Assembly: GCA_016839275.1 (NCBI GenBank)
Contig: JAEOUM010000114.1
Coordinates: 1-43,509, forward strand
Source: Candidatus Thorarchaeota archaeon
GTDB taxonomy: Archaea; Asgardarchaeota; Thorarchaeia; Thorarchaeales; Thorarchaeaceae
Direction of reading: 5' to 3'
DNA: 43,509 bases
Position 1 is the stretch's first letter. Every line of letters starts with the position of its first letter. The notes under the pieces are model-generated. The model made no database searches. It saw nothing but the letters and a program-made list of their open reading frames with translations, and had not been told where the DNA came from. Below are positions 1 through 3,383 of the stretch, piece by piece. The position numbers were made by a program, and so were the translations under genes.

Positions 1-945
1 AACCTCCGTGGAGTACTACGCTTGGTTTACCCCATCGCTCATGGAAAAATCGAAGACTGGGACGCAATTGAGAAGATATGGAGTTACACATTCTATAACG
101 ACTTGAAAGTTGACCCCAGTGAGAACCCAGTCCTTTTGACTGAAGCACCATTCAATCCCAGAGAAAACAGAGAGCGCATGGCCTCCGTTATGTTTGATAA
201 CTTCGGAGTACCTGCAGTATACGTTGCCACACAGGCAGTACTCTCACTGTACGCATCTGGTCGAACCACTGGTCTGGTCATTGACTCTGGTGACGGTGTG
301 ACCCACATAGTACCAATCTATGAGGGCTTTTCAATCAACCACGCCATCACAAGAATCGACCTGGCTGGAAGAGACATCACTGAGTACCTTCGCAGACTAC
401 TCAGGCAGACCGGATACACCTTTGTCAGCGGTGCTGAGAAAGAGATTGTCAGAGATATCAAAGAGAAGCTATGTTATGTAGCTCTTGATCCCGAGAGGGA
501 ACGAACTGTCGCTGACAAGGCTGGTGTTGACAAGCCATTCATGCTACCTGACGGTGAAGTAATCACAGTGGGTGCAGAGAGGTTCCAAGCTCCTGAGTTG
601 TTCTTCAACCCAAGCGCAATTGGCCTTGACACAATCCCACTCGACGAGCACATCGTCAACGCAATCAAGGCTTGTGACGTCGACTTGCGACGTGACCTGT
701 ACGCCAACATTGTACTATCAGGTGGTTCAACCATGTTCCCAGGACTTAAGGAGAGACTCCACAAAGAGATCACCGAACTAGTCCCAGAGAACATCGAAGT
801 CCGAATCATTGCTCCTCCAGAGAGACAGTACTCTGTCTGGATTGGTGGAAGCATTCTTGGCTCACTCAAGACATTCCAGAAGATGTGGGTGTCAAAGAAG
901 GAGTTCGAAGAAGTCGGACCCGAAGTGATACACCGCTGTATCTAG
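1..945 (+). CDS. Actin family protein (Asgard/Loki-actin type), 5' truncated by window edge
   Basis: Frame is open from base 1 ([15 protein letters not shown]...). Actin motifs: [96 protein letters not shown]-terminus [19 protein letters not shown] (compare eukaryotic actin ...GPSIVHRKCF). Confidence 0.97.
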
Positions 946-948
946 TAT
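894..948 (+). repeat. Actin-tail repeat copy 1 (within the intact actin gene)
   Basis: aaagaaggagttcgaagaagtcggacccgaagtgatacaccgctgtatctagtat; reference copy for two further copies downstream. Confidence 0.95.
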
Positions 949-960
949 ACACACAGTTTA

Positions 961-1000
961 ACGAAGGTGGGCTTCGTACCCCCTTCGTACTCTTGTTTTT
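961..1000 (+). terminator. Hairpin plus T-tract terminator after actin
   Basis: acgaagg-t-ggg cttcgta ccc-ccttcgt followed by actcttgttttt. Confidence 0.7.
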
Positions 1001-1049
1001 CAAACTTCTATATTAAAATAGAACCTAGTAGATGTGAAATGATTTACTT

Positions 1050-1661
1050 CTAGATCCATTTAATTTTTGGTTCTTTTCTATTCTGTTGAATACCATACAT
1101 TGTACTAGAATCATTCTCTGGATAGCCAAGTACAATGGGTCCATAAATTCGTTCGCCCTCTTTTATCTCGAGAGCTTCCATCACATTGGTGTTACCTGTG
1201 ACCAGCGCTCCAAATCCTACATAGCAACTGCCAAGACCTAGAGATGTAGCAGCAATCATAATGTTCTCACATGCTAGTGCACAGCTCACAGCGTAATCTG
1301 TTGGACCTATGACAAATACAATGACAGGTGCACCATAGTATATCACATCTTTGGGTTCATCCATGGATTCATAGTTCATCATTGTATCCTCATACATCTC
1401 TGGTTGACTTTCTTTCATTCCTTCTATCATTTGTTTCCAGAATGGAACTGTGGTTTGAATGAGTTTCAATTTGAACTCAGGGTCCTCAACAACGACAAAG
1501 CGCCATGGTTGGAATTGAACGCTTCCTTCTTCCATTCTTCCCCTCGAAGGTGCCTGATTTCCAGCTTCGATAATCGAATTGATGACATCTTTTGGAATGG
1601 GATCTGGTTTATATGACCTGATAGATCGCCTGTTCTTTATTACTTCAAGTACTTCATTCAT
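1050..1661 (-). CDS. Nitroreductase family protein
   Basis: N-terminal VIKNRRSIRSYKPDPIPKDVINSIIEAGNQAPS and QPWRFVVVEDPE; C-terminal AATSLGLGSCYVGF...GPIVLGYP, typical of FMN nitroreductases. Confidence 0.9.
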   Translation of the reverse strand: MNEVLEVIKNRRSIRSYKPDPIPKDVINSIIEAGNQAPSRGRMEEGSVQFQPWRFVVVEDPEFKLKLIQTTVPFWKQMIEGMKESQPEMYEDTMMNYESMDEPKDVIYYGAPVIVFVIGPTDYAVSCALACENIMIAATSLGLGSCYVGFGALVTGNTNVMEALEIKEGERIYGPIVLGYPENDSSTMYGIQQNRKEPKIKWI

Positions 1662-1891
1662 TCTTTTCTCTCCAAGATGTTATATTGTACTGGTGAAACC
1701 TGATACTTCACTAGATGATTTAACGCTCAAAATATAAATGAGAGGCACAAGAAAGGGTCACAACATGTGACTTCACCTAAGGAGTTGTACCTTGATTTTA
1801 TAGCTGACTAAATCGCTCGACTTTGAAAAAATGTTTTGCATCGTTCTTCTATTCTACATTTTAGTCAAAGTGACAATGAGTATTAAATAGT

Positions 1892-1946
1892 AAAGAAGGC
1901 GTTCGAAGAAGTCGGACCCGAAGTGATACACCGCTGTATCTAGTAT
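1892..1946 (+). repeat. Actin-tail repeat copy 2 (orphan actin 3' end, encodes [15 protein letters not shown]-stop)
   Basis: 54/55 identical to 894-948; no actin sequence upstream of aaagaagg. Confidence 0.95.
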
Positions 1947-1959
1947 GTAATTAGTTTCC

Positions 1960-1999
1960 AAAGAAGGAGTTTTTTCCCTCTTCGCTCTCTTGTTTTTTC
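1960..1999 (+). terminator. Weak hairpin plus T-tract following repeat copy 2
   Basis: aaagaaggagttttttccctcttcgctctcttgttttttc; same layout as after copies 1 and 3. Confidence 0.55.
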
Positions 2000-2551
2000 T
2001 CACTGTTTATTGGCTACAGCATCATCCTGTTTCTTTTCCCACCATGATGGTTTCTTTTCGAGAAGTTCATCCTTCGGACGCTCTATTCCTGATTTTACCA
2101 TCCACATCACAACAAGACCAAGTATGAATTGGAAAGGTAATGGTCCTGCATAGATTCCACTAGCATACGCTTCAAATGGAACTGACATTCCTGAAACGAA
2201 AATGGGGATGATCAAGCTCAATAGACCTGAAACGATTGCCCCTCGTTGAGTAGTTGGTTTTATGCAATAATATGTGACCTGAAGTGCATAGATTATGAAG
2301 AACAACAAGAGCATTACAATGATCATTGCATACACTGATCCAAGTATCCATCCTGATGGTTCCGTTCCTCCAGGTGGATTATAGGCTCCAAACAAGAAGA
2401 AGTATGTTGGCTCCATTTCCCACCCTATTCCTGACTGGTATGAAAGTGATGTAGGAGATATCACTAGGGGAGTCAGAACCGTCACACACCACAGCATGAG
2501 TAAACCAAGTTTTACCTGCAAACGATTTAACGAACTCATCGATTTCCTCAA
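2000..2551 (-). CDS. Hypothetical multi-pass membrane protein
   Basis: 183 aa with several hydrophobic segments (LLMLWCVTVLTPLVI, SVYAMIIVMLLLFFIIYAL, GLLSLIIPIFVSGM, FILGLVVMWMV); charged C-terminal tail. Confidence 0.7.
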   Translation of the reverse strand: MRKSMSSLNRLQVKLGLLMLWCVTVLTPLVISPTSLSYQSGIGWEMEPTYFFLFGAYNPPGGTEPSGWILGSVYAMIIVMLLLFFIIYALQVTYYCIKPTTQRGAIVSGLLSLIIPIFVSGMSVPFEAYASGIYAGPLPFQFILGLVVMWMVKSGIERPKDELLEKKPSWWEKKQDDAVANKQ

Positions 2552-2628
2552 TTATCAATAGATAGGACTTGGAAATAAATCTCGTCTATAGTGAAAATAT
2601 GTACTAGATAGTTGAGGTCAAGTTTTCT

Positions 2629-2683
2629 AAAGAAAGTGTTCGAGGAAATCAAGCCCGAAGTCATACACCGCTGTATCTTGTAT
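2629..2683 (+). repeat. Actin-tail repeat copy 3 (divergent, stop codon TAG changed to TTG)
   Basis: aaagaaagtgttcgaggaaatcaagcccgaagtcatacaccgctgtatcttgtat; 46/55 identical to copy 1; encodes [16 protein letters not shown] in the same frame. Confidence 0.92.
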
Positions 2684-2695
2684 ACGTTCATTTTA

Positions 2696-2733
2696 CGAAG
2701 AGGGAGTCTTTCCCTCTTCGCTCTCTCGTTTTT
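2696..2733 (+). terminator. Perfect hairpin plus T-tract after repeat copy 3
   Basis: cgaagaggga-gtctt-tccctcttcg (10-bp perfect stem, 5-nt loop), then ctctctcgttttt. Confidence 0.75.
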
Positions 2734-2747
2734 GATGCCCTTCTCCT

Positions 2748-3383
2748 TTAGATTTCATCTGCTTTTGCTGTTCCCAGTAAATAGCCGCCGAAACAAATAA
2801 TCCACGCCAGAAGTGGATAAATTGCCCAACGTTCCAATGATCCTTTTGCCATCCCGAGAAATGTCACCGTAGAGCCCGTTGGAAGCCCCAAATAGGGGAT
2901 GAAGACAATTGCTAGGACTAGTGACATCAATCCAAGCACTACTGCCATTATTGACATAGGTTTACTCTGGTAAGTATAGGAACCAATGGCTGCAAATGCT
3001 CCGAACATAATTGCTAGTAAGGTAGCAATGCTGTGCATTGGTTGAAGACTAGCGGGGAATACTCCCACGCCCATCGCACCAATTCCAGTAATTGTCAGGA
3101 GAACTGGTAGATGCTTTCTCTCGGTTGATTTGAATAAGAAAAACGCTCCAACTACTAGAAATGCTCCAAGCATGAAGACAGATAGATTGTAGATTGATGC
3201 GGTCGGTCCAATTCCAAGGTCACTGACATAGTCAATACGACTGCTATATCCATCAAACCATGACTCTGCGGCAAGAATACCCAAGAACCATTGAATGCCT
3301 CCTATTAGGAAGGAGCTACCGCTTATTGTTGTCTTATCAAACCGTTTTACTAGATTTTTTAGTGATGTTGTAGATTCTGTCAT
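2748..3383 (-). CDS. DUF998-like membrane protein
   Basis: Hydrophobic, with GGIQWFLGILAAESWFDGYSSRIDYVSDLGIGPTASIYNLSVFMLGAFLVVGAFFLF, resembling the DUF998 pattern. Confidence 0.7.
   Translation of the reverse strand: MTESTTSLKNLVKRFDKTTISGSSFLIGGIQWFLGILAAESWFDGYSSRIDYVSDLGIGPTASIYNLSVFMLGAFLVVGAFFLFKSTERKHLPVLLTITGIGAMGVGVFPASLQPMHSIATLLAIMFGAFAAIGSYTYQSKPMSIMAVVLGLMSLVLAIVFIPYLGLPTGSTVTFLGMAKGSLERWAIYPLLAWIICFGGYLLGTAKADEI

Follow-up and report, generated by a model that had tools for sequence, protein, structure and literature searches.

Repeated actin gene tails in Thorarchaeota as probable scars of small cassettes integrating at the actin 3' end

In Escherichia coli, the element e14 is integrated at the 3' end of a protein-coding gene, icd. 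Elements that integrate at the 3' end of a gene, whether for a tRNA or for a protein, are known, and a displaced gene fragment marks their far end, as in thaumarchaeal iMGEs (PMC6563490) and Islander islands (PMC4383910). Casposons occur as tandem insertions within the thaumarchaeal ef-2 gene (PMC6563490), and both integrons and CALINs, i.e., integrase-less arrays, are known from archaea (PMC9668308). A search of the open literature, with subscription journals and preprints outside its scope, gave no report of actin as an integration site. Here we describe a Thorarchaeota locus that carries three copies of the actin gene tail, which are probably attachment-site scars: small mobile cassettes would have integrated repeatedly, in a site-directed process, behind the last codons of actin.

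The window, that is the whole stretch of DNA analysed, is a contig of 43.5 kb (G000:C84) from a 2.58-Mb MAG (84% complete). It begins inside an actin gene, whose 3' 314 codons (1..945, + strand; PF00022, E=2.9e-113) encode a protein with up to 96% identity to Thorarchaeota actins; this gene would be the insertion target. The copied unit is a 107-bp module consisting of about 16 terminal actin codons, the stop codon, a 3'UTR hairpin and a T-run. The resident copy, T1 (894..1000, + strand; hairpin 961-988), is followed by the displaced copies T2 (1892..1997, + strand) and T3 (2629..2733, + strand), the latter being the copy under study, and these three were the sole significant repeat in a self-BLAST of the window. 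An earlier note on this DNA had recognized the actin match at 2629-2683 and overlooked that the UTR and the terminator-like hairpin also belong to the unit. Realignment of T3 2629-2683 to T1 894-948 reproduced its count of 46/55 identical positions (T2 versus T1: 54/55). Over the whole module, to position 2733, T3 is 77.6% identical to T1 (107 columns, E=6e-16 in a whole-genome search) and T2 about 82% (82.2-82.6%). The loss of the T3 stop codon (TAG to TTG) was confirmed, and its hairpin (2696-2720; MFE -17.2, compared with about -7.5 for shuffled sequence) and T-run are intact. The codon changes in T3 had been described as including synonymous or conservative ones; three are synonymous and three non-synonymous, with an overlooked GAG to GTG (E to V) among them. 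Upstream of 2629, we looked for further actin homology and found none, with 14/60 ungapped matches in the preceding 60 bp (22/60 for T2).

The proposal that T3 derives from a different actin paralog was not borne out, as its best match is a sister-species actin tail (87.7% over 106 bp, compared with 77.6% for the actin of its own contig) and most same-genus genomes yielded one actin gene; two MAGs had two actin contigs each. The full-length best match of T2 is T1 of the sister genome G010 (90.7% over 107 bp), above the match to its own T1, and this G010 copy precedes the same insert (B, see below) as T2 does. The T1 UTR is nearest to L089/L085, and not to the downstream-syntenic sister L084/G010. 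T3 is an old displaced tail, the oldest of the three in the window, and an ordinary member of the array. The same MAG contains a second actin contig (G000:C115, L064), 89% identical to the window actin over 880 bp; the last 73 bp are identical and the contig ends there, which may mean that another strain was co-binned or that the gene is present twice.

Between the tails lie two inserts. Insert A (1001..1891) carries a nitroreductase-family gene (1050..1661, - strand; PF00881, E=3e-30) present in 4 of 47 family genomes. Insert B (1998..2628), which in G010 directly follows T1 (79% identical), carries a gene for a small membrane protein (2000..2551, - strand) with no Pfam family above the cut-off. 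The last tail is followed by a DUF998 gene (2748..3383, - strand; PF06197, E=2e-16), which forms the chromosomal flank in several relatives and adjoins the distal tail in G005, G011 and G013. The order is thus actin-T-A-T-B-T-DUF998 in the window and actin-T-B-T-... in G010, so that the two differ at the actin-proximal position by insert A plus one tail, the same site in G010 being without insert A. The insert A gene is 92.8% identical between the window and G009, another species, compared with 77% for DUF998 and 87% for actin; judged by these identities, cassette A has been laterally transferred. Going by contig coordinates, 1.6 Mb separate this gene from actin in the single-contig genome G036, and the G063 copy lies on a contig other than that of the tail matches.

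Across loci, the inserts measure 0.2-4 kb and hold between one and four genes each, and their cargo includes toxin-antitoxin-like pairs and membrane proteins. Examples are a deaminase, an uncharacterised gene cluster and an HD/radical-SAM protein (L087), a HepT/nucleotidyltransferase pair (L141), DUF433 or DUF5615 proteins (L096, L104), an S15 peptidase with an HTH protein (L092) and a Ras-like GTPase plus an actin paralog (L113). The genes to the right of a tail are antiparallel to actin in 39 of 66 cases, and their stops are usually less than 50 bp from the T-run. The actin paralog of L113 (6831-7952), situated behind actin, is 57.7% identical to it overall, but its last ~18 codons, UTR and hairpin are 88-91% identical, i.e., it is a chimera. 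A class I lysyl-tRNA synthetase gene is located between two actin tails in L101 (11134-12759). Furthermore, comparison of L075 (G009:C187; 402-1030, reverse strand) with L078:812-830 revealed a gene and a tail copy inserted beyond DUF998, the TAG stop of the gene being provided by the tail sequence; hairpin-only remnants nearby suggest older decayed sites.

The arrangement is widespread in Thorarchaeota. A profile scan detected displaced copies in 22 of 36 actin loci (window included) and a weak match in one more; in these 36 loci the copies are situated 0.3-8.4 kb downstream of actin, always on the actin strand and never upstream. The module was found in 14/16 same-genus genomes, with up to five copies, and a model search matched it in 43/47 family genomes. 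Relatives carry two to five same-strand copies, all behind actin. The suggestion of the earlier note that copies of unequal age arose by a recurrent, site-directed process is supported. In the single-contig genomes G034 and G036, matches were present at actin only (one in G034; two, 0.9 kb apart, in G036). The actin tail was the sole, or nearly the sole, significant repeat in 21 other regions, L107 and L135 each having one unrelated repeat. A genome-wide dispersed repeat was rejected, as the copies are confined to the actin locus or its contigs with the exception of one weak hairpin-only match (G063:C20). The actin loci of Jord-, Hel-, Heimdall- and Borrarchaeal genomes contained no tail copy, apart from a single Jordarchaeal locus in which two weak matches lie upstream of actin on the minus strand. 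The contigs of L093, L109, L078 and L064 have their start or end in an actin tail or only a few bases away from one, as expected of a repeat or of a strain-variable site.

The right edge of the module, the T-run, is steady across relatives. The left edges of T2 and T3 agree within about 1-2 bases, as had been noticed, but across relatives the left edge varies over ~40 bp, and the identity of left breakpoints therefore fails as an argument for a site-directed process. For the same reason, the integration site is less sharply defined than a tRNA att site. A site-directed, recurrent process still holds on other evidence, the exchanged 3'UTRs giving site direction stronger support than the left breakpoints did. 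In L085 and L086, the actin bodies are 98.5% identical, but the identity of the resident UTRs is only 0.79; the displaced L085 UTR reaches 0.89 with L086, and 0.89 and 0.93 with two displaced UTRs of L087. Similarly, the displaced UTR of L092 matches the resident UTR of its sister L088 at 0.93, compared with 0.77 for the resident UTR of L092. In L138, T1 agrees with the sister L093 in the coding part where T2 does not, and in the UTR it is T2 that agrees with L093, at 22 sites versus 7. The switch point falls within 15 bp spanning the stop codon (TGTATCTAGTACACA), and seven codons differ between T1 and T2, all of them synonymously. T1 and T2 of L138 are reciprocal hybrids, the clearest case of exchange. 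About five arrays show clear UTR exchange; it is absent or undecidable in others (L098, L101, L104, L107 and L113), with UTRs that are near-identical on both copies or with decayed arrays. Pairs of empty and occupied sites with the gene end swapped are G010/window, L086/L085, L088/L092 and L093/L138.

When displaced tails are compared with resident ones, a single copy being taken from each locus, synonymous changes make up 61 of the 96 codon differences (p=7e-6, calculated with our own two-branch estimate of ~41% for the neutral expectation; the one-branch value is 26%). Since the differences are mostly synonymous, many displaced tails seem to have diverged within coding actins of other lineages. 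At the level of the entire family, the coding-like substitutions pointed out in the earlier note are supported.

The most probable explanation of these observations is as follows. A circular cassette would hold one full actin-tail module, with tail codons, stop codon, UTR and terminator-like hairpin, and this module would recombine, probably near the stop codon, with the resident module. After integration, actin would be intact and carry the UTR and hairpin of the cassette, and the native UTR would be pushed downstream to the far side of the insert; the integration of such a tail-bearing circle would thus make the resident UTR foreign and leave the native one in the displaced copy. Repetition would build integron-like actin-T-gene-T-gene-T arrays with newer cassettes nearer to actin. 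The displaced tails, no longer translated, would decay, as with the lost stop of T3. The recombinase would presumably act in trans: none was found among ~30 insert proteins scanned, and PF00589 and PF00239 had no match in the genome of the window (84% complete). A tyrosine recombinase in G018 (L187:2016-2480) was considered and rejected, as ~12 kb separate it from the second tail, which lies upstream, and no significant tail copy adjoins it. A phage or plasmid carrier was likewise rejected: there was no phage match, and plasmids gave one irrelevant 34-bp match.

The module also offers a candidate for the exchange core. The arms of short inverted repeats lie on either side of the stop codon, e.g., TGTAT-CTAGT-ATACA, centred on the stop codon of the window actin (937..951, + strand; exploratory), TGCA-TCTAG-TGCA and CCGCT-GCATCTG-AGCGG. 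Their mean arm length was 3.70, compared with 3.02 for shuffled and 3.26 for swapped UTRs (0/300 each), in a test for which the sequences are related, the arms short and several designs possible; these repeats give no more than a first hint of the crossover core. The hairpins fold more stably than shuffled sequences, with means of -17.9 versus -9.0 kcal/mol for resident and -14.3 versus -7.9 kcal/mol for displaced copies. These energies are from single-sequence folds, and the RNAalifold consensus/model R1 placed three pairs only, the hairpin lengths being different.

One alternative is target-site duplication, in which an integrase of transposon- or Cas1-like type would place DNA downstream of actin and, through a staggered cut followed by gap repair, leave about 55-110 bp of the native tail in two copies, in the way in which CRISPR adaptation duplicates its repeat. 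The layout does resemble leader-repeat-spacer arrays, and T1 and T2 hardly differ in their coding halves in the window (54/55), L092, L085 and L141, which also fits target-site duplication or gene conversion. Nor does cassette integration readily account for the synonymous bias: a coding half, once displaced, is expected to decay within its array, and the bias needs recent renewal of the tails from actin genes. However, duplication of a native tail leaves the reciprocal hybrids of L138 with their seven synonymous and no non-synonymous differences unaccounted for, as well as L107, L113 and T3 of L087, which show five synonymous and no non-synonymous differences; moreover, left edges vary and several arrays have a foreign resident UTR. 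We therefore regard target duplication as unlikely.

Homologous recombination or gene conversion without a dedicated recombinase, with DNA from relatives whose arrays already existed being exchanged at the conserved actin tail, would be in line with the lack of a recombinase in the inserts scanned and in the genome of the window. Hybrids could arise by such exchange, and the tracts shared by T1 and T2 suggest conversion. On the other hand, the exchange in L138 took place in a 15-bp identical block within a poorly matched module, which is short for this mechanism, and it would explain neither how unrelated genes were first joined to actin tails nor why the actin tail alone is repeated; as an account of the arrays as a whole, it is quite improbable. 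Decay of tandem actin duplicates down to their 3' fragments is very improbable. The second actin-family gene of L113, which ends in a tail, and the two MAGs with two actin contigs are what it would lead one to expect, but whole-gene decay should give random fragments, and the fragments in independent arrays begin within the same stretch of ~40 bp close to the 3' end, are immediately preceded by unrelated genes and show no further actin homology.

It is conceivable, though rather doubtful, that an undescribed integron-like cassette system operates across Thorarchaeota, in which the actin stop codon and hairpin would form the recombination site, a yet-unrecognised recombinase would act in trans, and accessory genes would be captured and exchanged. 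If so, the Asgard archaea, the closest archaea to eukaryotes, would possess a gene-capture platform anchored on an actin gene. This would show how single genes enter Asgard chromosomes, make the recombinase and the origin of the cassettes testable, and account for Thorarchaeota assemblies sometimes breaking at actin.

Compared with casposons, the actin arrays share with those in ef-2 the tandem insertion at a conserved protein-coding gene of an archaeon, but terminal inverted repeats and short target duplications, which together with Cas1 characterize casposons, were not seen at the actin inserts. In a CRISPR-like array formed by target duplication, repeats are identical when made, whereas the tails of L138, L107, L113 and L087 differ, with synonymous codon changes and swapped UTRs. 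With the elements at gene 3' ends, the arrays have in common that the target 3' end is restored and a second copy of it marks the distal boundary of the insert, that relatives have empty sites with the gene end swapped, and that tandem arrays at one site are known; the actin inserts differ in their size of 0.2-4 kb, in holding between one and four genes and in that no integrase was found in those scanned. As for integrons, their integrase (TIGR02249) had no match over the cut-off in 47 family genomes (MAGs, hence incomplete), as in CALINs, which lack IntI by definition, and no attC core (R''/R', GTTRRRY/RYYYAAC) was noticed by eye in the module alignments; the modules have a strong hairpin. 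Like integrons and CALINs, the arrays consist of tandem one-gene cassettes separated by a module resembling a recombination site, a function that we infer, and carry cargo of toxin-antitoxin type; the lack of an integrase is shared with CALINs. Unlike integrons, they are anchored on a housekeeping gene, and the sites within the array are homologous to the anchor site.
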